Assembly (NCBI GenBank): GCA_002049455.2
Contig: KV918788.1
Location: forward strand, 62,001 to 126,000
DNA: 64,000 nucleotides
Source of the DNA: Porphyra umbilicalis
Taxonomy: Eukaryota; Rhodophyta; Bangiophyceae; Bangiales; Bangiaceae
Direction: 5' to 3'
The notes under the pieces are model-generated. The model saw nothing but the letters and a program-made list of their open reading frames with translations, had not been told where the DNA came from and searched no databases. The position numbers and the translations under genes are program-made. Every line of letters starts with the position of its first letter. Position 1 is the first letter of the stretch. Shown here piece by piece: positions 12,334 to 62,939 of this stretch.

Positions 12334-14520
12334 TCACGGGGCCGGCGGGGTCGGTGGACTGGGCCGACGCGGCGGCGTCAGCGGGGGCAGCCCCGCACTG
12401 GCAGCAGCGCCGCCGCCATTCTGTACCACCGTGGTCGGCGCTGGCGTAGCGGCCCGCGGAGCGGCGGGCACCTTTGGGGGCGCCCGCGGCGCGCCCGCGG
12501 GCGCCTTGGGCGGCCCCACTTTGAGCGGCACCGTCCGCGGGGCGGCGGGCTTGGCCGCCCCCGTCTTGACCGTCGAAACTTTGGGCGTCGCTGCCTTGCC
12601 GGTGCCCGGCTTAGCCGCCACAATCTTGGTCGTAGTCTTGGACGAGACTGACTTTGGCGTGCCCCGGTTGGTGCCGCCCATCAGCACGTCAATGTCGCCC
12701 GCAAAGAATTCGTTGCGCGCCTCTCCTCTCCGGTCGGCCGGTTCCTTGTCTTCCCCCGTCACCTCAGAGGGGCCGGGAAGGTCCGCCCCAGGCGGCAGCT
12801 CCGCCATTTGCACGCTCGGCGCGGCGGCGATGCTCCGCAGCCCCTCCAGCACTTTGACCTTGACCTTGTCCAGAAACTCCCGGTCGTTCTTATTCTCAAT
12901 GGTGCCCGGCGCGATGTGCAGCTCAAAATCCGGGGCGTAGTACTCCCAGTAGTCATTGTAGGGGATGCGCGGGTCAATGTCCGTGCCTAGACACACGGCC
13001 GTTTCGTACGTCCAACAGCGCGCCACGGAGCGGATGTTGTAGCCGCCCCCGCCGAGCACCAGCGTCGGCACGTTGAAGGATTTCACAAACTCCACGCACG
13101 CCGCGTGGCCCTTGAGCGTCAAGTTGAAGCACCCCAGCCGGTCGTTGGCGAGCGAGTCCGCGCCGCACTGGAGCACCACCGCCGACGGGCGGAACACCTC
13201 AAACACCTTGGTCAGCACCGGGCGGAAGACGCGCTCGTAGGACGCGTCATCAATGCCGTCGCGGAGGGGAAAGTTGACGGCGTAATGGGCACCCGCCCCG
13301 GCGCCCGTGTCGTAAACGTCGCCCGTGCCGGGAAAGAAAGAGTCCCCGTACTTGTGCAATGACACGGTCATGACGCGGTCGGTCGTGTAAAACGCCTCCT
13401 CCACCCCGTCCCCGTGGTGCACGTCAATGTCAATGTACAGCACGCGCGGGAAGCGCGTCAGCAGCTCGAGGATGGCCAACACAATGTCATTGACGTAGCA
13501 AAAACCGGACGCTTCGGACTTTTTGGCGTGGTGCAGCCCCCCCGCCCAGTTGATGGCAATGTCCGCGGTGCCGCCGGCCAGCTTCTTCGCGCCGTCAATG
13601 CTGCCGCCGGTGGTCAGCGCGCAAAAGTCATAGAGCCCGTCAAAGAGCGGGCAATCGTCGGCGGTGCGGCCGACGTTAAAGCGCGCCAGCGCACGGGCGT
13701 GGTCAGATGCGTTGTCAGGCGTGACGGTGCGCAGGAAGGAGATGTAGTCGTCCGAGTGGAAGGCGGTCAGCTCGGTGGGCGTCGCCGAGCGGGGGCGGTA
13801 CACCTCCTACGTCCGAGGCCAAAGACCGTGGCCAAGCCACAACAAGCGCGGGGGTACAGCTCGACAAAGAGGAAAAACCGCAAGAGTCAACAAAAATGCA
13901 ACCGTAGACAACCAAAAAGCAAAACCAACAAGAGAAGCCACTCGAGCACCACACCGACGGCGTGTCGGAAACGCCCCGCTGCCGCAGAACCAATGGGAAC
14001 CGCGCGACCCGACCTCTTGCGTGCGAGACAAGGAAAGCACAACGTACCATCTCACGGTAGAGGCCTGCGCCAAATAATAACGTGGCCAGGTGGGCGCAGG
14101 GGGGGGGGGGCAGGGGGGAGGAAGGATGGAGCAACAAACGCACCACCACCAAGCGACAGAAAAACCACACCGAAACAAGGTGCAAACACGGACCAGACCC
14201 ACAAGCACCCACCGTCAGCCACCCGCAGACCTGCCGCCCGCACGGCCGCGGTCCGTGATGCGCGTACGCCCGCCCGGGGCGCGCCGTCCGCGGGCCCCCA
14301 CCTCACGCCGCACGTCACATGCACGCCCTCACCGCCGGCGGGTCCCCCCCCCCCCCCCCCCCCCCCCCAAAACGGACGGCACAGCCCCCCAAAACGCACC
14401 GTACGCCAAGCACAGGTTGTACGTCATGGACAAGCGGTGCGGCTTCATCGGGTGGTGCTGCGCGTAATAAAACCCCCCAATGTCCGTGTCCATAAAGTAC
14501 GCCACACGCGGACGCGACAT
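12334..14520 (-). CDS. Class I histone deacetylase (HDAC1/RPD3 type), three exons, 536 aa
   Basis: Zn-dependent lysine deacetylase expected to act on histones in nuclear corepressor complexes. Exons: 14520-14400 ([20 protein letters not shown]..., the HDAC N-terminus), a 17-nt microexon 14064-14048, and 13806-12334. Splicing reads [16 protein letters not shown], which matches the class I pattern YGLYxKMExYRP. Catalytic residues are complete: His pair in [14 protein letters not shown] (about 138-139), Asp/Asp/His in [11 protein letters not shown] (172/174/176), Asp in CGADSL (263) and Tyr in GGGGYNIR (302), near HDAC1 numbering. After about residue 375 comes an unusual Lys/Ala/Pro/Thr tail like a histone H1 tail, then Pro-rich sequence to TGA. 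I chose ATG 14520 because homology begins there, although the frame is open further upstream. Introns are 335 and 241 nt; the first holds a 25-C run. The family assignment is certain; the paralogue is not. Confidence 0.95.
14048..14064 (-). other. 17-nt microexon of the deacetylase gene
   Basis: Sequence GCCTCTACCGTGAGATG on the minus strand, preceded by AG (GCGCAG) and followed by GTACGT. It completes a split Gly codon and adds L-Y-R-E-M. Without it, exon 1 (phase 1) and exon 3 (phase 0) cannot be joined in frame by good splice sites, and the conserved YGLYxxM segment is lost. Confidence 0.85.
14344..14368. repeat. 25-C homopolymer in deacetylase intron 1
   Basis: Uninterrupted run of 25 C on the plus strand, G on the transcribed strand, inside the first intron. 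Similar runs occur at 4693-4717, 17296-17317 and 63696-63719. Confidence 0.9.
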
Positions 14521-29304: not shown

Positions 29305-30324
29305 ATGATGTCCGTGGATAAGAGAGAGCACCTCGTGAGGATGGTCCGCGAGGACAGTCGCAGCGTCGCGGCCGCCGCCCGGGACGTCCGCATTTCGGTT
29401 CGGTCTGCACCGCACTTCCTTCGCTACTTTCTGGACACCGGCGGAGACTGGCACTACGATCCCGCTCGGTGGAACCGGCACCGCGACAGTAGCGCCGACG
29501 ACTTTTAGCTGCGTGATGCGGTGCTGTTGACCTTTTGCAGGGCGCCAGAGCTGTTTCTCGACGAGATGGCGGACGCCGTCAACGACATTGCTGCACGGGT
29601 TGAAGGGGCGGTTGAGGTGGCTCCGGCGACTGTGGCTCGAGTGCTGAGGCGTAACGGTTACATGCGCAAGGTTGTCGAGCGGGCCTTTATCACGCGTAAA
29701 GAGGCGAACCGGGTTTCCTGGGTGGTGGCTCAGTGGCGCATCCCGCTGCGCTGCCGTGAGTATGTGGATGAATCGCACGGAGTGGAGCGGGTGGCGGAGC
29801 GGAGGTGGGCCTCGTCACTGCGCGGGGCTCGTTCTGAGTCCTACGTGACGTCACCGCCTGGGGTGCGCACAAGCTTATTTTTGGCTATGTCGCATGATGA
29901 GTTGTTGGACTGGATGATGACGTGCATCCCATCAGGTCAGACCTCTGTGGACTTCCTTCTTTTCATGACGAGCGTTGTGTTACCTCGCATGAGCGCTGCG
30001 GAAAAGGGGGGTGAGTGGGCCCGTCAGCCTGAGCGTTGCATCCTCGTTTTTGACAATGCCAACGTGCATGATGAGGTTGCCTTGGCAACAGTGAGAGACG
30101 CCGGAATGGTCGTTTTGCTTTTGCCGCCCTATTCGCCGGACTTCAATCTCATTGAAGACGTCTTTTCTGGATTCAGTAGCTGGCTGCGACGCTACTCCCG
30201 CCCGGAGCATTTCAACGCGTGGCCCATGCTGACGATCAACTCAATGCTGGCTGACATTACTGGTGACATGTGTCGTGAATTGGTCAAAGTGGCCGTATGC
30301 CGCTATGAAATGTACGTCCCGTAA
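29305..30324 (+). pseudogene. Tc1/IS630-type DDE transposase with one in-frame TAG
   Basis: Cut-and-paste transposase of the IS630-Tc1-mariner superfamily. The ATG at 29305 starts an N-terminal helix-turn-helix region (SVAAAARDVRISVRSAPHFL). Codon 68 is TAG (29506-29508), after which the same frame continues without shift: a second helical region (LFLDEMADAVNDIAARV...ATVARVLRRNGYMRK) and the catalytic core. The acidic triad appears intact: Asp in YVDESH, Asp in ILVFDNANVHD, and Glu in LPPYSPDFNLIEDVF, the diagnostic motif. It ends at TAA 30324, about 339 codons, followed by AATAAA at about 30329. I found no terminal inverted repeats. Only the TAG separates it from a full-length gene, so it is either freshly dead or read through. 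Confidence 0.9.
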
Positions 30325-33100: not shown

Positions 33101-36100
33101 TGAGTAAGGCCATGAAGTCGCAGTGTTTTGTCCCCGACTCTTTATATGTAAGAACTGGCAGAATCGGTGACGCCCACCGACGTTTCGCGGAACTGTCGCG
33201 TAGTGATCCGGGGATCCAATTATGCGCTATTTTGCTTGATCTTCGAGACAGAGTCCACAGTGGATATGAGAATTGCTCGATGACTGCGTTCACACACATT
33301 CAGTGGAAATCTCTCCATACGAACAGCCGCAGAATCCGCAGTTGTCCGGTGAAGTTGCTGCCGAGTCTCTTGGAAGGATCATTCTGATTTGCTGGTTGTG
33401 ATTTTTTGCATATTATGTTCAGGACTGAGCTGAAGTCGCGGTACGATCATCTTCTGGATCGTCCTTATGAACACGCGTGCGCGACATTGAATATAATTCC
33501 GACCCCACGGTTTTGATCGCAGATGGTAGCCTGGATTACTTTGAGCGATATCAGACGGAGGGTCACAGGTAGCTGGAGAACAAGCGGTCTGAAGTATACG
33601 TTATAGGCCGATCATCTGGCCTGTTTTGTACGTGACCCTTCGAATCATGCTGAGTCTATCTGACGTCAGCGTCGCACGGCTATCTCAGAAACTTCTTTCG
33701 CGTCTTCTCGTTATGGCTTCACAAGCCGGAGTTTTCCGAACTAACCTGGGCATGAGATACCGACGCAGAGTGCAGGGCTGGAACCGAGTCGGAAAGCTTC
33801 TTATACAATCTCAAATTTATCAAAGGCAGTAAATGCAGCCATCTAAAAACTGTTGGCCTCCGGCTGACAATTCGACAACGCAAGAAGGCAGTGGCACCCT
33901 CCTATAGGAAGCTGCCTTCGCACAAAGGTCAGAAGCTGGCGACAGTGCTAGTTGTCGCACTATCGCCTGCTGGAGGCTCCCCCGCCAGCGAGTCGCGCAG
34001 AATAGCCGCAAACAAGTGGCGGTGCTGGTCCCAGTTGGTGTTAGGTGTGAGATGTCCAGTGTCTCACACCTGTCCTGGGGCGCCGTCAACCGTACACCGG
34101 TGGCACGTAACATTTAGTAAAGTCCTTATTTCTGTCCCGTATACTGTCTTTGTTATCGTTATCGTCCCGTTAATGTGTCCACCAGCATCGTCTCCTCGGA
34201 CACAGTCATAGACAGCCGACGCAGTCTTAGCAACAACGTGGGCAGTCGTCTCACCCATTGCTGCGGCGGCACGAGCCCGGGCATGAGCCCGGGCACGCGT
34301 ACACAATGTATACGCTTCCTGCTATTCCTGAACTCCAAAAGATGGCGGCTTCAGAGTGGTTGCAACCATTGGACAGTGCTGGTGGACAGATGGAAAGGCT
34401 GAGAATCGTCTGAGTTGCTTACAAATTCTCCCCATGCAGCTCTGGGCACTGAAGCAGCACATCAAGATCTCAAGAAATCTAAGACGATTTATAGATCTTA
34501 TGAGAAATGACGGGTCTGGCCCAGATCCCTCTCCATTCCCTCTTCAGGTCGAAGCAAGCGGCCCAAAACCCCGAGGAAATCTCATTCTGGGTTGCAATGA
34601 CTTTGTGTGACTCCTGAATGACATAGTAATTGACTTGCAAGATTACTGGCGGAGACTCCCAGCCAATAGATCGATCGTGTCTTTTCGAACAGCCAATCCG
34701 ACATCATTTTTACGCCCTGTCGTCGGTTCTGCCTCCCGTCTCTCTGCAAGCGCCTTTTTCGGAGGTTAGCAATAGCTCGCACCTCGAGAAAGCGAAGGGG
34801 GAGGTGGGGGGCACGCCTTGTTAAGCTGGCTGTTTTGCTTCAGTGCAATGCACGAGCAGCCGAAAAGCCCATCCCTGACGTGCAACGCCTCTAGGCATCA
34901 GAAGCAATTATGCAACGTCTTCGTTTTCCTTCCGCGACCCCATTCTATTTCCATCCTCGATGACCTCTCTCAGCGGGCTTAACGATGTTCAAGAACCAGC
35001 AACAGTTCAGACTTTATCCGTGGCGGACTATGCCTTGCTTTGGCCAATTCCATTCTGTCGCGTGCTCTGGCCCAGTCAATCCTGTCGCGTGCAGGTGATC
35101 CCATGGATCAAGTCACTTACAAGCGCCGCTCAAAGGTGCGGTATTCTGGCCCTGGAGGGACGCAATATGGCGGAAGCCGGTGAAGTCCAGGCGTAACTGC
35201 TCTGGTTGTGGTGCGAGACGGTAAACGCTCAGATGAGGAGAGAAGTTCTGCCGAGGGACCATTTTCTCACTGCTTGCCAGCCGGTGCGCGGAGAAGCGAG
35301 GCACTCACTCTCGCCACCCGCCACCCTCGTGAACAATTTGGTCGCCCAGTCCCACGTCGCGCGCTCCCGTCCTTGCCTCGGTGGCAGAGCAGGGGGGCCT
35401 GGTGGCGGCGTTTCCTTTTGGCCACAAAGGCTCTGACGTTGAAGATTGGCTCTTAGAGGACCCCGCAGTGGCCTGGGGCGGGGGAAAGAGGGGAGGGGGT
35501 GTGCGCAGACAGGCAGACACAGACACACAAGAGAGACACGGTGCACACCTGCAGTCGAGACGCACGGCAACGTGCTCGCGCAGCTCTCACGGGGGGACGG
35601 TGCGGCGAAAAGCACAGAGGGACCGGCAGGAAACGTACCACAACATGGGGCGGGCAAGGCGGGGGCAGGGGCGGCGACGTCGGCAACGACAGCGACGATG
35701 TCGGAGGCCACGGCGACGGCGGTGTGGGAGCGGGCGTTGTCCGCCGCTCACCACCTGGCGTCATCCTCTCCCTCCCAACCAACACCAGACCATAAAAACG
35801 GCCAGCCAAGCCTGCCCATAGAGTCAGGGGCCAGGTGCGGGGGGGGGAGGCGGGGACGTGCCGAGGTGGGGGCGGCGGTGGCGCCGGTAGCGGCGGGCAG
35901 CGCCATGCTGGCGGGGCGAGTGTTGGTCACCGATGGTGGCCGGCGGCACCCGACGCAGTGCACCTTTTGACCGCCTGCGGGGCCCTCGACACACGTTGCG
36001 GGGGGGGGGGGTCCGGGCACGCTTTGCGGGGCCTGTGCGCGGGTGTCGGCGGCCGACGGGCGAGACACCAGCGTTGGTCGGGCGTGTGGGACGAGGGGGC

Positions 36101-36847
36101 GCGATTCGGCCGCTGTGTGGCCGTGGCGGCGCACGCGCGTGGGAGATACACCCCGCTGGACGGCTCTGAGGCGGCAAGAGGCTCAACGGAAATCTCGATG
36201 AGCCCCGCTGGAGGCGCACGTGGTGGCGGCCATCCAATGGCCTCGGAAAGAGATTCTCGTGTCCACCAATGGGAACAGAGATCGGCTGCAAAAAGTTTTT
36301 TTTGAAATCTTTCTATTGCGGACTTCGTAGATCATTGTTGTGCTGATGTGAATATGATTTTGAGGAGGAGGGGAGATTGTCGCCGGCAGAGATCCTCCAA
36401 TAAAAATGCATCCATGTGCCTTTTCGTGAGAGCGAGCGCCTGCGGGGGCAGCCCCCTCCGCTGCCGGCGGAGTGAGGGCCCCACCCGCGCGCCCGTGTGC
36501 AAGGTGGCGCGCGGGTGCCTGTGGACGTGGCGCTGGTTGGCACGCGAGGCCGTATAAGAAGCCCGTGCGGCTGGCGGTCGGTTGCCGCGGCCGCAACATA
36601 GTGCGTCTCCCGTCGCCGTCGCGCCCGCCGCTCTTCCTCGGACTCTGCGCCAACGGGCTGTGTGCGGCCCCCACCACATCCACGAGCGGGTGTCCCACCC
36701 GCCGCCCGACTGGTTGCCGCCGCGGTGTGCCGCCCCGGGTGTCTCTGTCCGCTTTGCGGCTTTCAGCGGTGCTCTCTGCGGCGGGCGTGGCCGAAGTGCC
36801 CCGCTGTCGTGACCATCACCGGCGCCCGCTCTAGCGTGCATCTACCC
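33101..36847. other. Spacer without recognisable genes
   Basis: Ordinary composition to about 35.2 kb, then GC-rich. A 12-bp tandem GAGCCCGGGCAT/C occurs near 34271-34294. A plus frame at 35698-35970 (MSEATATAVWERALSAAHHL...) and minus frames at 35.2-35.7 kb are open but carry no domain. A TATA-like GTATAAGAAG at about 36551 lies some 295 bp upstream of the H3-like ATG. Confidence 0.35.
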
Positions 36848-37543
36848 ATGGGCCGCAACAAAATGACGGCGCGTCAGTACACGGGCGTGCACAAGCGCCA
36901 GTCTGGGTCTCTGGCGGGCGCAAAGGCGGGCGCGACGGCAGCTGGCGCCGGTGCGGCGGGCGTTGCGAAGGGCGGCGCCGAAGTGGCGGCAGCCAAGGCG
37001 GCTGCGATGGCAGCTGCGCCGGCCATTTAGCCGCGCCGCTGCGACCACCCGGGGGCGGTGGCGCTGCGAAAGATTGCACGGTTTGAGTCTCGCGGGTAGC
37101 TCTTCCTCCCGCGCTACTCGTTTGAGCGGCTATTAAAGGAGGCGGTCGTCAACTGCAGACCGGGGCTGCGCCTGACAGCCGAGGCAGTGGACGCCATGCA
37201 ATAGGCAGCCGAGGCGTACCTTGTGGAAGGTTGTGAGGAAGCTGTGCTGTGCGCGGCGCACGTTAAGCGAGTCACGGTGATGGTCAAGGATCTGGCGCTG
37301 GCGCGCAGCATCCGCGGCGGGCGGGGGAACGTGGGCGCCGCGGGTAAGGCGACGGAAAGTGGTGGCGGGCGTCGCCGACCAGCGGGCGCCACCGAGGGGG
37401 GCGACGCAGGCGAGGGACGGGGGCGCCGCAGGCGCGGTTGGGGGCGACGCAGGCGCGGCGGGCGGGCGCCGCAGCTCCTGATCGTACCCACACCTATACT
37501 TTCTGGAATCGTGCATCTCAGCAATTTGCAGAAAAAGCAGTGA
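36848..37543 (+). pseudogene. Histone H3-like gene with three in-frame TAG codons
   Basis: H3 is a nucleosome core histone. The ATG at 36848 starts GRNKMTARQYTG, which aligns with the canonical tail ARTKQTARKSTG (Lys4 kept, Lys9 to Gln, Ser10 to Tyr). An Ala/Gly/Lys-rich insertion follows. One frame then runs through the histone fold: HPGAVALRKIARF (RPGTVALREIRRY), YSFERLLKEAV (LPFQRLVREIA), LRLTAEAVDAMQ (LRFQSAAVMALQ), AEAYLVEG (SEAYLVGL), [20 protein letters not shown] ([20 protein letters not shown]). Only three TAGs interrupt it (37028-37030, 37097-37099, 37202-37204). The last two align with conserved Glu59 and Glu94, so single GAG-to-TAG changes would explain them. There are no frameshifts. 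The frame continues past the fold with a Gly/Arg-rich extension to TGA 37543. Loop 1 is not lengthened as in CENP-A. Called a pseudogene, but most substitutions are conservative, so readthrough is worth testing. Confidence 0.82.
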
Positions 37544-38322
37544 AACAAGTGGGGCCACTGCCATGACGTTGAAAATGTGCACAGGTGAAGTGATCCAGCA
37601 GTCTACAAGTGGAGAATCACCAAGGGCCAGGGGCTGCGCAAGTTCTGAAAATAGATCACGGGAGTGCTATAATGCTGTCCTGGGGGTCTCTTCGAGATCT
37701 GCTTTGGTGTCGAGAGAACCAGCACGACAGGGCACTTCGGGCCCGCGTGCCACGCACTCCGCCACGGCCGCTGCAGCGCTGCATCTATCAAATGTACCAA
37801 TCGAGGACAATACGGCAGGTGAAAGTTACACCGTCCTTTTGTGGCCTCTCATGGCTGTACATTGCGGCACTCTTGTACTTTAATGCGATCAAGTTCATCA
37901 ATACACGGCCCTGAGAGCCATACGAAGGGGGCCCGATGTTGATCTCTTGCCAACGACCAGTTTCGGAGTGACATGCAAGAGCATATGATGTGAGTTAAGA
38001 GAGTATACAAGGAGTATGGGTGACGGCCCTGGAAGTGGCTCCGAAAAGCTGTACAGTGGATGACGAGACCTTTTCATTGTGGAAGTCCGCGGTGCTGCAC
38101 GAGCGCCGTTGGCTGCCGGCTATACCGACCCGTGGCTGCGCTGCACGGGCCACGGGCTGGGCACGGGCCCGATCAAACGAGTTGCTCAGCCCTGGCCCGC
38201 CGCTCTTGCGCGGCGTCCTTAGACGGGTCGCCGTGCCATCGCCCGCGCTCTGCCGGCGGACCTGGCCGGGCACGGTTCGTCGTCGTGTTTCTCACCCCTG
38301 GTGGGTGTCTGCGTGTCGCCCG
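37544..38322. other. Spacer
   Basis: No domain-bearing frame on either strand. It leads into the 47-bp minisatellite. Confidence 0.35.
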
Positions 38323-38800
38323 TCCTGCTCGCGCGCTACTGGCACCCCCCCTTCGCGTCTGTGCGGTCCCGCGGCGTGCGCTCTCTCGCGCACCGTCGTC
38401 GGCGTTGCTGTGCTCGCGCGGAGTGCGCGTCCTCGCCCTTTCCCCTCAGAGTCGTTGTATTTGCGCGGCGTGGGCTCCCTCGCGCTCCCTCCTCGGCGTC
38501 TGGGCTGTCGCGCGGCGTGCGCGTCCTCGCCCTTCCCCCTCGCCGTTGCTGTGGTCGCGCGGCGTGCGCATCCTCGCCCTTTCCCCTCGGCGTCGCTGTG
38601 GTTGCGCGGCGTGCGCTCCATCGCGCTGCCCCCTCGGCGTCTGGGTGATCGCGCGGCGTGCGCTCCCTCGGCCTTACCCCCCGGCCTCGCTGTGCTTGCG
38701 CGGCGTGCGCTCCCTCGCACTCCCTCCTCGGCGTTTGGGTTGTCGCGCGGTGTGCGCGTCCTCGCGCTTTCCCCTCGGCGCCTTGGCGAGCGCGAGGCGC
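38323..38800 (+). repeat. 47-bp minisatellite, about nine to ten units
   Basis: The anchor CGCGG recurs at 38370, 38417, 38464, 38511, 38558, 38605, 38652, 38699 and 38746, exactly every 47 bp; flanking half-units are more degenerate. The unit is C/T-rich (GTGCGCTCCCTCGCGCTxCC...CTCGGCG). Because 47 is not a multiple of three, any frame through it cycles through all three phases and would encode a 47-residue repeat. All phases lack stops, so the long open frames here are probably not evidence of coding. Confidence 0.9.
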
Positions 38801-38880
38801 GCGCTCGACGACCTCCTCCCACCGCCGTCGGGGTGGGCGCGGCGGCATTGTCGCACACACCACCCGAGCCTCCTGGGCAG

Positions 38881-39030
38881 GTGTGGTGCAAGATCTGCCA
38901 CATCTTTGTGGAGTTGAACAACCTCGACGAGCACTACACCGGGAAGGCGCACGCGCGTTCCAAGAGCTTTGCAGAGTTCGAGGAGCATCGCCGGGCGAAT
39001 GGGGCCGCCGCCGCCTCGGTGCCGCGCTGA
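38881..39030 (+). CDS. Terminal exon with U1/matrin-type C2H2 zinc finger (partial)
   Basis: Begins right after a C/T-rich tract ending GGGCAG, a good splice acceptor. It encodes VWCKICHIFVELNNLDEHYT then GKAHARSKSFAEFEEHRRAN, ending at TGA. The pattern CX2C...HX5H with the GKAH signature fits U1-C/matrin/JAZ-type zinc fingers, which bind double-stranded or spliced RNA. The usual spacing between the second Cys and first His is 12; here it is 11. The same frame is open upstream through the 47-bp minisatellite to 38020, but that sequence is repetitive and may be intron. The 5' exons were not identified, so the full protein is unknown. Confidence 0.5.
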   Translation: MWCKICHIFVELNNLDEHYTGKAHARSKSFAEFEEHRRANGAAAASVPR

Positions 39031-39294
39031 TTTTGCGCAATCTGCCGCAAGGGGAACGACGCAGCGATCAGCCTGCTAGCCCACTCAGCTGGGAAGTCCC
39101 ATTGTCGGACGGTTGAGATGCTGGTGGAGAACCGTGCGGGCAGGCAGGTGGCGCTGACCGTCACGGCGCTACGGACGGCTCTGCACTCGACGGCTGCGGC
39201 TTTGAGCGTGTCGATAGCGCTGCCGTGGGCGGCCGCACCCCCGCCGGCGGCGACATCGACAATAGAAGCGACGACGGCGACGACGGGGGTGGAC

Positions 39295-39493
39295 GGCGCC
39301 GCCGGCAGCGGCCGCACCTCCGCCGGCGGTGGCGGCGACGACGGCGACGACGGCGCCGGCGCCGGGGAGTTAGACGGCGTCGCCGGCACCGGCCGCACCT
39401 CAGCCGGCGGAGATAAGGACGGCGGCGGCGACGACGGCGGCTTGGGGGGGATGCACGGCGCCGCCGGCACCGGCCTCACCTGCTCCGGCGGTG

Positions 39494-39524
<31 letters not shown>

Positions 39525-39618
39525 TGGGTGGTTGGATGGTGCCATCGGCAGCAGCCGCACCTCCGCAGGCGGCGGCGGCGACGACGGCGACGGCGGCGAC
39601 GACTTCTGGGTCGAGCGC
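39295..39618. repeat. 81-bp tandem repeat, four units
   Basis: Units start at 39295, 39376, 39457 and 39538, each beginning GG(C/T)G(C/T)C(A/G)(C/T)CGGCA and containing GCCGCACCTC-like blocks. The period is 27 codons, so frame is kept. Plus reads GAAGxGRTSAGGGGDDGDDGG; minus reads SPPPPAEVRPLPAAPS, an extensin-like Pro-rich repeat. The minus reading is continuous with sequence down to 38934 and may be a real secreted or wall protein; this is undecided. Confidence 0.75.
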
Positions 39619-39884
39619 GACGGGGATAGCGTGGAGCCGATCGCCGTCAGGCTGACCGTGTCCCCGTGGCCGCGGAAAGCCGTCTCCATCACAAGGGGAC
39701 CGCCGCTGGGTGGTTGGATGGTGCCGTCGGCAGCAGCCGCACCTCCACAGGCGGCGGCGGCGACGACGGCGACGGCGGCGACGACTTCTGGGTCGAGCGC
39801 GACGGGGATAGCGTGGAGCCGATCGCCGTCAGGCTGACCGTGTCCCCGTGGCCGCGGAAAGCCGTCTCCATCACAAGGGCACCG
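39521..39884. repeat. 182-bp tandem duplication
   Basis: 39521-39702 and 39703-39884 are nearly identical, from GCTGGGTGGTTGGATGGTGC to CATCACAAGGG. Because 182 is not a multiple of three, the duplication breaks frames on both strands. Removing one copy gives long uninterrupted frames, so it is either a recent mutation or an assembly duplication. Confidence 0.85.
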
Positions 39885-54286: not shown

Positions 54287-54703
54287 CACCTCTGTCCGTA
54301 CCTCAGCCTTGGTAATTGCTCATACCTCGAGCAATGATCGAATGAGTGGCGCATTTCTTTGTCGGCGACGAACCACGTCTTGACATCGCTTTCCGGCGGG
54401 TCATTTGCCGCTCTTGGCTCTGCGCCGCCGTGTGCCACCTGCTTGCGCCCTGCCAAGGCCGCCCGTCATCCAGGCGGAAGCGCATGCGCCAGTCCGCTCT
54501 CCTGGCATACCCGTGTTCTCTTTCTCGGTCTTGGCCGCTTTTGCTCCTGCCGTTTTTTGTTCTCCATCCTGTACCTCCCGCTCGCCCTCTTTGACCCCAG
54601 ACCCGCAGCCGCGGGCGGTGCGCCGCGCTCGCACGCCCCCTCGTGCGGACGCCCGCGTCTGAGCCGCAACCGCCTGACCTCTGTCCCACCCCCTGCCACC
54701 GCC

Positions 54704-55534
54704 ATGGATACCTCTGGCGGCGGTGGGGACACCCCGGCGCCCGCCACCACGCCCGCGCCAATGGCCATTGCCACGGGGGGCGGCAGCGGCGTCGTTGCCC
54801 CCGACGCCCCCCTGCTCTTTACCAACCCCACCACCGAGGAGGAGCACCGGGGCATCCCCGAGGCCGTCTTCTTTGACGATGTCCCCGCGGTGGGTGCCGC
54901 CCACGGGGCGGCGCCGACGATTGCGGCGCTCGACCAGCTGCTCGCCAAGTACAAGTTTTGGGAGGAGCGCTTCCAGCGCCGCCGTGCGGCGCTCTCCACC
55001 AAGATCCCGGACGTGACGCGGGCGGTGGATGTGATCCAGGCGCTGCAGGCGGCGGCGGAGGCGCAGGGCGGCGGCGCCAATGGGGACGGCGGGGATGGGC
55101 GCGCCAAAACGGGCGCTGCCGCCGACGCTGCTGGCGCCGACGCTGCCGGCGGCGGCGGTGATACGGGCACCCTCGAGACCCACTTTGAGCTGTCCACCCA
55201 ACTCTTTGCCAAGGCCACCGTCAAGGCCGGCCGGTCGGTGTGCCTCTGGCTCGGCGCGTCCGTGATGGTGGAGTACGAGCTCAGCGACGCGATGGAATTG
55301 CTGCGGGAGAACTTGGCCGGCGCCCAGTCGCAGCTGGCCGAGATGGAGGGCGACTTGGCCTTCCTGCGCTCCCAGATGAATGTGGTGGAGGTCAACATGA
55401 CGCGCGTGTACAATTGGGACGTGGCGATGCGGCGGCAGGCGGCCAAGGCGGCGTCGGGGGGAGGCTCTGCCGCCGCCGTGGTCGCCGCGCCGGGGAAGGG
55501 GGCGATAGAGGCGGCGCCGTCGGCAAAGGCGTGA
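54704..55534 (+). CDS. PFD3: Prefoldin subunit 3 (VBP1/Pac10/GIM2 family), 276 aa
   Basis: Alpha-class subunit of the hexameric cytosolic co-chaperone prefoldin, which hands unfolded tubulin and actin to the CCT chaperonin. The ATG at 54704 has a CCGCCATGG context. After a Gly/Thr/Pro-rich leader the family blocks appear in order: RGIPEAVFFDDV (50-60), first coiled coil LDQLLAKYKFWEERFQRRRA (76-95), PDVTRAVDVIQALQ (102-115), ETHFELSTQLFAKA (158-171), VCLWLGASVMVEYELSDAME (179-198), second coiled coil to DLAFLRSQMNVVEVNMTRVY (217-236), and NWDV. All match human VBP1. An Ala/Gly/Asp-rich insert of about 35 residues (120-155) lengthens the tip of the first coiled coil. The C-terminus is Ala-rich. 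Intronless, ends TGA. Confidence 0.95.
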   Translation: MDTSGGGGDTPAPATTPAPMAIATGGGSGVVAPDAPLLFTNPTTEEEHRGIPEAVFFDDVPAVGAAHGAAPTIAALDQLLAKYKFWEERFQRRRAALSTKIPDVTRAVDVIQALQAAAEAQGGGANGDGGDGRAKTGAAADAAGADAAGGGGDTGTLETHFELSTQLFAKATVKAGRSVCLWLGASVMVEYELSDAMELLRENLAGAQSQLAEMEGDLAFLRSQMNVVEVNMTRVYNWDVAMRRQAAKAASGGGSAAAVVAAPGKGAIEAAPSAKA

Positions 55535-59185: not shown

Positions 59186-61389
59186 TGTCGGCCCCCGCCT
59201 CGGCACCCGGCCGCCGCCCGGCGCCGAGGGCGTGCAACCCCCACCACAAGCCAACGGCGGCGGCTCGTCTGCGACACCCACCGACGACGGTCCTGCCGAG
59301 GCACCGGCGTGAGTTCCCGGTCCACCTACCTCGACCGCCAACGCCGACGCCGACGCCGACGCCGCTGCGTTATCACCGCCCTCTGAGCCACCACCCCGAC
59401 GGCCGACGCGGGCTTAAGGCGGGGCGCGCCCGCCGCCGTCGGGAGCGGGCACGCAAGGGCGCGGGGGGGGGGGGGGGGGGCGCGGATCCGCTGCCCGACG
59501 CCCAGCCGACTGCCCCGCCGACGGGGAGCCGCTGCCGCACGGCCAGGCGGGGAGCCCGCCCGCCGACCGCGGCGGCGGCCCCCCCCCGCACGCCACCAAA
59601 CCGGCCGCTCACGGGCCCCCCGCCCACGGCGTCGGCCGGCACGCCAACACAGCCCGCCTGCCGGATCGGGAAACTGTATCGACCAGTCCGCCCGCCCTCC
59701 CCCCTCGGTCGCTCGTGCACGGCACGCGTCGGGGGGGCGGCGCGGCAGCGCCGGGACGGGAGCGCGCTCGCCGTCTGACGCACGCCCACGTGCCCGGCCG
59801 CGGGCGCGGGCGGGCAGTCCTGCACATCCACAATGGGCCCCGCGACGGTTGTGCGGCGCTTGCACCGCCCGCGGTCTGTCCAGGAGCGCCCGCCGGCGCA
59901 CGTGTCCCCGCCCGCAACCGGCCACGACGCCGGCGCGGGCCACGCGGCGCACTGGGTGGCAACCGCTCCCTACATCCCAGCCAGACCGCCGAATACAGCC
60001 CTTACAAACTGGTCGCGGTGGCCACACCCGCGCCAAGCAGACCCGGCTCTGCTACTGGAGAGGAGGGATGCCCCGCCCACGCCCCTCCCGGCGCTGGGGT
60101 GCGGTCATTGTCGGCCAAAAACAGGGGGCAGGAGCATGCCGCCCACAGACTGTGGCGGCGCGCGAAGAGTGCTCCACCACGCCAAGCCACAGGCACTCCA
60201 CCTTTTTCGCACGGCCCGCTCGTCCCGTCTCCCCGCCCCCGCCTCGAGGGCGCGCGCCGCCCAGTGCACCCTCATGAAGCCGCCACGAACACGACGCCGC
60301 CTGCCGCCAACAACACTGCTTGCCGCTTGCCGCCGTCTTCATGACCACGGCGGTGCGTGGACCGCCACCGCACGTGGCATGCCGGTGGGAGCGGGCGCGA
60401 CAGGGACGAGAGCGGCAGGGCCCAGCTGGGCCCGGCACAAATAATCAAGTGCACCAGCGTCGATAAGGGGCGACAGGAGCTGCAAAGCAGAGCTGTTACC
60501 TCGAGACATCTCTATGCTGCAACAGGGCAGGGTGCACAGCAGCACACCCTGCTGCCGTACAGCGGAGGCGACACTGTATTCTGTACACAGTTTCGTCGTG
60601 GAGGAAGCGGCCAAACACTCGACAACCGCCGTGACTGGAGCTCGATGATCGATGAGTCACATGTCAAGTGTGTTGTAGTTATGTAATTGTTGAAGAAGTA
60701 GTCTTGCATGATCTTGGAAAGTACGTTGCGGTAGATGACGCACAAGTGATGGAACGTGGGATTTTGCGGCCCAGAACGACCATTGAATGTCTGGCATTGG
60801 CCAATCAGCGCCCTTTGTACCAGACCGTCCAATCAATGGTAGAGATGGTATTGTAACGTGGCCTCTCGATTCAACGTGAGGCCAGAAGATTCCGCACGTA
60901 TCGACGCATTTGTGCCGCCATCCACGGGCCGAGTTCCGCAAGAACCCCGCCGGCGGCACACGTCGGATGGCCGTGGCACCCGCGGATCCCGTTGTGGAGG
61001 CGGTTGGCCGCCCCAGACTTGCCTCGGCGCGTGGCCAGCCACGGCCGCGCGGCTGGCCAAGGGCGCTGCCGCCGGTGGGTGACCCCCCTGCTCCCGGTAC
61101 CACCGAAGTTGCTGGCGGCACCGCCTGCCGCCGTCCGTGCTAGCGTCCGCCGTCGACGCGGCGGTCGTCAACGCGGCACGCCGCCATCCCGTGCTCGCGA
61201 CTTTGACCGCCCCGCTGGGACAAGCGCCGCCACCTCGCCGGCGCCTGCGCTGGCGGACGGCGCCGCCTCCCGCTCGGTTGTGACGGTGCCGCTGTTGGGG
61301 GGCCTGCCGCACCACCCCACCCACCGCCGCAGGCCGCCGCCCTGGACGTGGGCGGTCGGTGCGTTCCCCGCGCCGCGGAGGTCGGCGCC
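59186..61389. other. Divergent promoter region with G runs
   Basis: Lies between the starts of the Hint gene (minus) and RibBA (plus), about 2.2 kb. Contains an 18-G run at 59463-59480 and a less GC-rich middle (60.45-60.9 kb). Long frames on both strands are Arg/Pro-rich and carry no domain. No gene supported. Confidence 0.4.
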
Positions 61390-62939
61390 ATGGCGTTTGT
61401 CGGCGCTGCCAGCGGCCTCCCCCGGCGGCGGCCTGCGAGCCACCTCCCGCGCCGCCCGAGCTGCCGCCGGCCGCCGTCGTTGCGGCCGCTGGCCATGGCG
61501 GCGGGGGCTTTCATCCCGCCTGCGGCGTCGGCGGCGCCCCCCCCCGCGGCCAACGGGGCGGCCACCAGCGGGGTGGCCACCAATGGGGCGACCACCAACG
61601 GGGCGGCGACCAGCGGGGTCCCCCCCCCCCGGCGGTGGCCACGTTTGACGTCCCCGACGACCACGACGGCTGGTGTTTTGGCTCCGACTCGGTAGACGCG
61701 GCCATTGCGGCGCTCGCCCGTGGCGACATGATTGTCGTGACGGACGATGAGGACCGGGAGAATGAGGGGGATCTCATCCTCGCCGCCGACGCGGCGACGC
61801 CCAAGGCCATTGCGTTTATGGTGCGGCACACGTCGGGGGTGCTCTGCTGCGCCATGCCCGACGCGGCGGCGCAGCGGCTCGCGCTCGCGCCCATGGTGGC
61901 GGTCAATACGGACCCCAAAAAGACGGCCTTTACCGTCTCTGTCGACGCCAAGGCCGGCACGACGACGGGCATTTCCGCGTCGGACCGGGCGGCGACGCTC
62001 CGCGCGCTCGCCGCCGACGCGTCGGTGGCGACCGACTTTAACCGGCCGGGCCACATCTTCCCCCTAACCGCCAAGGAGGGTGGGGTGCTCAAGCGGGCGG
62101 GCCACACCGAGGCGGCCGTGGATTTTGCGAGGCTGGCCGGCCACGCCCCCGTCGGCGTCTTGTCGGAAATCGTGCGGGATGAGGATGGGGAGATGGCGCG
62201 CCTCCCCGAACTCCGCACCTTTGCCGCCACGCACGGCCTGGTGCTCACGTCCATTGCGGACCTGATACGCTGGCGGCGGGCGCGGGAGCGGCTGGTCGTC
62301 CGCACGGGGGAGAAGCCCGCGCGGCTGCCGACGCGGTACGGGGAGTTTACGGCGTTTGGCTTTCGCTCCCTCGTCGACGACGTGGACCACCTGGCGCTCG
62401 TTGCGGGGGACGTGGACTCCCTCGGCGACGCGCCGGTGCTCGTGCGCGTGCACTCAGAGTGCTGCACCGGCGACGTGTTTGGCTCCCTCCGCTGCGACTG
62501 TGGGCCCCAACTCGAGTACGCGCTGCGGGCGGTCGCGTCTGCCGGCCGCGGCGTCGTCGTGTACCTGCGTGGCCAAGAAGGGCGCGGCATTGGCCTCGGC
62601 CACAAGATGCGCGCGTACGCGCTGCAAGACGCGGGGCGGGATACAGTGCAGGCGAATGAGGACCTCGGCCTCCCCGTCGACAGCCGCGAGTATGGGATTG
62701 GCGCGCAGATGTTGGCGGAGCTCGGCATCTCGCAGCTGCGGCTCATGACCAACAACCCGGCCAAGTACCGGGGGCTCCGCGGGTACGGCCTCGAGATTGT
62801 GGAGCGGGTGCCCGTGCAGGTGACGCCCAACGTGGAAAACCTCGGCTACCTCCGCACCAAGCGGGAGAAGATGGGGCACTGGCTGCCCGACTTGGAGCGC
62901 GTGTCGTCGGTTGCCGCCGACGGCGAGGCGGCGGTGTGA
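61390..62939 (+). CDS. RIBA: Bifunctional riboflavin enzyme RibBA, plastid-targeted, frame break at a C11 run
   Basis: Two activities that start riboflavin synthesis, expected in the plastid: 3,4-dihydroxy-2-butanone-4-phosphate synthase (from ribulose 5-phosphate) and GTP cyclohydrolase II. ATG 61390 (GCGCCATGG) opens [15 protein letters not shown], a transit-like leader with an early Phe as in red algal plastid proteins, then an Ala/Thr/Asn-Gly repeat. At the C run 61620-61630 (11 C) the frame shifts; with 12 C leader and enzyme are continuous, about 516 residues. RibB motifs: [51 protein letters not shown]. RibA motifs: [18 protein letters not shown] (three zinc Cys), [35 protein letters not shown]. 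Ends [14 protein letters not shown] plus a short Ala-rich tail, TGA. All key residues are present. Confidence 0.95.

Follow-up and report, generated by a model that had tools for sequence, protein, structure and literature searches.

A histone H3-like frame interrupted by three TAG codons in Porphyra umbilicalis: a probable pseudogene in a genome with transposon-borne H3 variants

A histone H3-like frame in Porphyra umbilicalis (contig KV918788.1, positions 62,001 to 126,000; this stretch of 64,000 nucleotides is called the window below) is very probably the decayed gene of a divergent H3 variant, a pseudogene whose three internal TAG codons are ordinary stops. This reading, which an earlier note on the same DNA had offered as one of two, is supported by the three nonsense codons, the loss of the end stop, the existence of an intact relative (P0001) and the use of TAG as a normal terminator. 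Translation of the forward strand gave a continuous frame from the ATG at 36848 to the TGA at 37541-37543 with exactly three in-frame stops inside, all of them TAG, as the earlier note had described. In a profile search of the genome's contigs the frame matched PF00125 with E=1.1e-18, and with hmmscan the match reached 6.7e-20, above the cut-off, making the core histone H3 fold significant; the homology to H3 lies far beyond chance. The frame is not open over the fold, as it holds three TAGs, the first of which precedes nearly the entire histone match. The absence of indels claimed previously was found to hold from the tail to the end of the fold; beyond it the end stop is lost and 71 codons follow after GGRG. 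At this place P0001 and P0004, another relative, terminate after GERG, and the end stop of the window copy may have been lost either through a small indel or through substitutions. Features are collected in Table 1.

Table 1. Features of the H3-like locus, its surroundings and one transposon (window positions unless a contig is named)
Feature	Position	Strand	Basis
H3-like frame: MGRNKMTARQYTG tail, Ala/Gly-rich stretch, histone fold, up to SIRGGRG; probable pseudogene	36848..37327	+	translation, PF00125, P0001
Run-on past the usual H3 end: 71 codons + TGA 37541-37543; end stop of relatives lost	37328..37543	+	translation, relatives
TAG 1 (codon 61), in tail; Gln in P0001 and P0002, P0004 out of frame there	37028..37030	+	alignment
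TAG 2 (codon 84), H3 Glu59; Glu in P0001, P0002 and P0004; also 3' edge of the model's first intron	37097..37099	+	alignment
TAG 3 (codon 119), H3 Glu94; Glu in P0001 and P0004, Lys in P0002	37202..37204	+	alignment
Implied intron 1, 117 nt, removes TAG 1 and TAG 2	36983..37099	+	P0003 mapped on window
Implied intron 2, 27 nt, removes TAG 3	37187..37213	+	P0003 mapped on window
Implied intron 3, 597 nt, removes most of the run-on	37331..37927	+	P0003 mapped on window
Left flank, repeated at C489 (90.8%)	35475..36498	.	sequence match
Right flank, repeated at C489 (82%)	37984..39183	.	sequence match
Histone deacetylase	12337-13806	-	Pfam scan of window frames
DDE_3 transposase stretch	29509-30321	+	Pfam scan of window frames
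Prefoldin	54338-55531	+	Pfam scan of window frames
Riboflavin synthesis	61284-62936	+	Pfam scan of window frames
PIF/Harbinger-type element with H3 variant	C28:233489-246529 (L126:1-9901 = C28:235900-245800)		terminal repeats

A protein search revealed the intact relative P0001 (160 aa; identity 89%, query coverage 92%), with the sense residues Gln, Glu and Glu at the sites of TAG 1, 2 and 3. In the H3 alignment two of the TAGs sit at the conserved Glu59 and Glu94, as noted before. Relative to this intact homologue, the disabling changes of the window copy amount to three nonsense codons and the loss of the end stop. Two further relatives are damaged themselves, P0002 by an early end and P0004 by a tail that lies in another frame. 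P0001 could derive from another species or another strain, or could be a paralogue absent from the assembly, in which no second copy of the window's H3 subfamily was found. DNA of the intact relative was not found in viral contigs, and prokaryote genomes gave only one distant H3-like match; it lies on L125 (CALZFZ010000106.1), a MAG contig labelled Muriicola, which encodes an H3-like stretch that is perhaps a eukaryotic contamination. In a tree built from 24 fold sequences, P0002 not being among them, the window copy, P0001 and P0004 formed one group with a support of 100, the branch of P0001 being near zero and those of the window copy and P0004 about 0.09 each; a placement of this subfamily among H3s beyond its own clade was not obtained from this tree.

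The window copy and P0001 differ at 12 fold positions, two of which are TAG sites. The commoner H3 residue was that of P0001 at 10 of these positions, that of the window copy at one (by a margin of one sequence) and neither at one. One of the window's changes is R129S, at a position where R is kept in 63 of 63 other H3s, many of them near-identical copies. Since at four of the 12 positions one of the damaged relatives P0002 and P0004 carries the window's residue too, the changes at these positions may predate the loss of function. The asymmetry of residues, which consists of residue counts and not of dN/dS, fits a relaxed constraint on the window's branch. The conservative nature of most substitutions had been taken to suggest constraint at the protein level; this would be valid for the ancestor, as they are mostly shared with the intact P0001. 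Several changes specific to the window copy hit residues that other H3s conserve.

A frame that is otherwise open, in which three of three stops are TAG and two of them occupy conserved Glu positions, could also be explained by decoding of TAG as an amino acid, be it by reassignment or programmed readthrough and be it organism-wide or specific for this gene, and such a possibility had been raised in the earlier note. However, the canonical full-length H3 genes L001, L002 and L003 read RIRGERA followed by TAG, with the sequence after TAG differing between L001 and L002/L003. UAG is therefore in use as a terminator, and these H3 ends refute TAG as a sense codon for the genome-wide code. Moreover, eRF1 retains the stretches TASNIKS and YLCDNKF, which we take to be stop-recognition motifs, and looks standard. 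TAA terminates two H4 genes, eRF1 and three actins, and the three Rab genes with readable Cys ends stop at TGA, TAA and TGA, so that the case for TAG as a terminator rests on the H3 genes, given that TAG occurs at none of these three Rab ends. According to the accessible part of a published study, highly biased genes prefer UAA over UAG and UGA (PMC10496412), and TAG would thus not be the preferred stop there.

Also, in-frame TAGs elsewhere do not stand for one amino acid. Seven distinct other H3 loci carry TAG, five of them with a close sister (all except L011 and L015), and in these five the sister's residue at the TAG site is Ser, Lys (twice), Leu or Gln, never Glu. No in-frame stops were found within the eRF1 match and two actins, and TAGs flagged inside the actin L033 and the Ran-like L110 appear, as read from homology, to lie at intron edges. 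Similarly, the postulated suppressor tRNA with a CUA anticodon did not turn up. The corresponding genome pattern search, of a limited sensitivity that intron-bearing or unusual tRNAs could escape, gave 21 matches, 20 of which are one near-identical sequence. ARAGORN recognized no tRNA in the six of the 21 matches examined, four of these six were compared with Rfam and had no match, and five of the six code for a portion of a transposase. With a control pattern for CTG, the raw counts were 22 matches and 11 in the reversed control. We consider decoding of TAG as an amino acid extremely improbable, also in view of the codon composition, which accounts for the TAG bias.

In order to describe this bias, nonsense routes were counted as single-base steps to each stop, transitions being weighted 2 (kappa 2). 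The share of TAG among nonsense routes was 0.88 for L001, 0.92 for L002 (canonical H3), 0.84 for the variant L006, 0.77 for H4, 0.72-0.80 for eRF1 and two actins, and 0.52 for the window frame with its TAG codons left out. At such shares of 0.52-0.92, TAG in three of three cases would turn up with a probability of about 0.14 to 0.77 and is unremarkable. The premise that TGA and TAA, too, ought to arise by random decay thus fails here, since codon composition predicts mostly TAG and other decaying histone matches agree with it: among 84 PF00125 matches genome-wide, 10 have internal stops, namely 11 TAG, one TGA and no TAA, a tally in which three TAGs come from the window copy and in which C132 and C399 are identical in sequence. 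The assembly searched comprises 83.8 Mb in 665 contigs; the accessible part of PMC10496412 gives a genome of 87.7 Mb with a GC content of 0.658 and a GC3s of 0.816, the top value among the red algae compared there.

The pseudogene would have arisen from an ancestral gene for an H3 variant some 160 residues long, in which nonsense substitutions accumulated after selection had ceased. Since the GC-rich codons GAG, CAG, AAG, TCG, TTG and TGG lie a single step from TAG, nonsense changes here would nearly always be TAG. Translation, if any, is predicted to yield 60 residues and to halt before almost all of the histone match, and hence no H3 would be made. The occurrence of three nonsense changes without a frameshift in tail or fold is mildly unusual for an old decay and counts against the pseudogene reading.

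The same locus carries the public gene model BU14_0074s0016 of Porphyra umbilicalis (P0003), whose three main pieces match the window exactly and whose 112 residues are those of the window frame, less the TAG-bearing parts, together with four from downstream. If this model were correct, the TAGs would be removed by introns and a 112-aa protein would be made; the kept pieces agree exactly with the window, and all three implied introns have GT...AG borders. However, the 117- and 27-nt introns cut into tail and fold and delete residues that belong to an unbroken frame in P0001, the spliced product would miss part of the histone fold, and the two intron-bearing matches looked at have gaps of about 440 bases (actin) and 235 bases (Ran-like). 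A spliced gene is therefore very improbable, and BU14_0074s0016 (window 36863-37942) is likely an artefact of a prediction that skirts the three stops. An intact gene marred by errors of sequencing or assembly might also be thought of, as the evidence comes from one assembly and an intact relative exists. However, many errors would be needed to produce TAGs at three places, the loss of the end stop and several changed residues, and the frame after TAG 3 has been annotated separately as the protein P0006 in seven contigs, which may share the same data, so that we give this explanation hardly any credence. With the pseudogene reading, a false lead to an altered genetic code is removed, stop-type bias by itself emerges as a poor hint in GC-rich genomes, and the public model is flagged.

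The flanks of the pseudogene recur together at C489, where 77 unrelated bases lie between them; this copy is without H3, and H3 may have been either inserted in the window locus or lost at C489. The part of the left flank at 35475-36292, whole or in pieces, also has matches at C153, C173 and C498. No convincing terminal repeats were found for the recurring segment 35475-39183, and none of the 10 ORFs scanned in it gave a Pfam domain above cut-off. In the H3-less flank copy (L097, C489:16500-20500) a reverse frame with two C2H2 zinc-finger-like stretches was noted by eye. Tandem repeats lie near the H3 frame, just 3' of it, at 38301-38898 (47-base unit), 39285-39608 (81) and 39519-39882 (182).

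The abundance of H3 in Porphyra umbilicalis is probably owed in large part to transposons, a well-supported reading in which variants of H3 have come to be carried as genes by PIF/Harbinger-type elements. The H3-like folds that could be sorted, after leaving out the window copy, duplicate fetches and fragments (including L004), numbered 62, with 33 in family A, 10 in B, nine in C, four in D, five near canonical and one single. Two family A copies have 9.8 kb in common at 99.6%, together with a PIF/Harbinger-type transposase, and the transposase of L126 matched PF04827 (3.5e-60) and PF13359 (1.2e-15), which makes it one of the Harbinger/DDE_Tnp_4 kind. A scan of L126, which lies on the same contig as the window (C28), for a second, Myb/SANT-like protein gave NAM-associated at 24.7 bits (cut-off 27.7) and Myb_DNA-bind_4 at 17.3 (cut-off 27), both below. 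In the three elements read, which are 13.0-13.3 kb long, terminal inverted repeats of 20 bp (GAGCAAACCC...) are flanked by the 3-bp target duplications TGA, TTA and TCA. The exact terminal repeat occurs 81 times genome-wide and never in the reversed control. Facing pairs of it at distances of 8-16 kb number 20, and an H3 match is enclosed by 18 of them; as two pairs share one end, an H3 match lies inside 17 of 19 repeat-bounded elements of 11.2-14.6 kb. At least 17 H3 matches of Porphyra umbilicalis therefore sit inside PIF/Harbinger-type transposons of 11-15 kb. Further loci noted together with L126 as H3-carrying PIF/Harbinger-type transposons of ~13 kb are L127-L133.

The comparison of dN and dS covered 26 of the 33 family A and six of the 10 family B copies. 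In its main contrast, L006 versus L048-L052 (five near-identical sequences, which count as one contrast), a dN of 0.003 and a dS of 0.126 were obtained, and here the transposon H3 is under purifying selection. In L026, L073, L089, L075 and L079, dN is near dS, and these copies look decayed. Stretches related to the element ends lie near at least four family B copies at 78-83% (among the best 40 of 181 and of 289 candidates). Divergent multi-copy H3s form family C (L012, L020, L061, L062, L071, L077, L081, L084, L087) and family D (L027, L082, L083, L086). L011, L022 and L069 are single divergent H3 genes, and at a guess one of them could be the centromeric H3.

Nothing in the window supports a Harbinger origin for its own H3 copy, since the element's transposase, Myb-like frame and terminal repeat have no match there and only the H3 itself aligns. 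Because the other copy of the recurring segment lacks H3, and P0002 and P0004 are broken as well, the window frame might be seen, next to the transposon-spread H3s, as the remnant of a further mobile H3 which multiplied in a similar way and then died out, a joint reading that we find rather unlikely. The transposon-borne H3s outweigh the TAG question in importance and merit a separate study, and purifying selection on them raises the question of whether the element uses its own histone to mark or protect chromatin.

When compared to its relatives with a MGRNKMTARQYTG tail (P0001, P0002 and P0004), the window copy has the same tail and fold, whereas three stops and a missing end stop belong to the window copy and P0001 is intact. 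BU14_0074s0016 represents the same locus as the window frame but drops the TAG-bearing parts as introns. As far as the accessible parts of the sources go, the window copy resembles genes of nuclear codes with UAG reassignment in having in-frame UAG within a homologous frame, and differs from them in that UAG terminates real genes in Porphyra umbilicalis. Among the literature matches listed, which do not cover subscription papers, no red-algal or Harbinger H3-carrying transposon was found. Fungal hAT transposons are described, in the accessible parts of two studies, as carrying H3-like genes (PMC3538342; PMC6710886), and like the Porphyra elements they present an H3 gene amplified within a DNA transposon. 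Unlike these fungal hAT carriers, as far as those parts describe them, the Porphyra elements are of PIF/Harbinger type and red-algal, and the likeness extends to these elements and not to the window copy.
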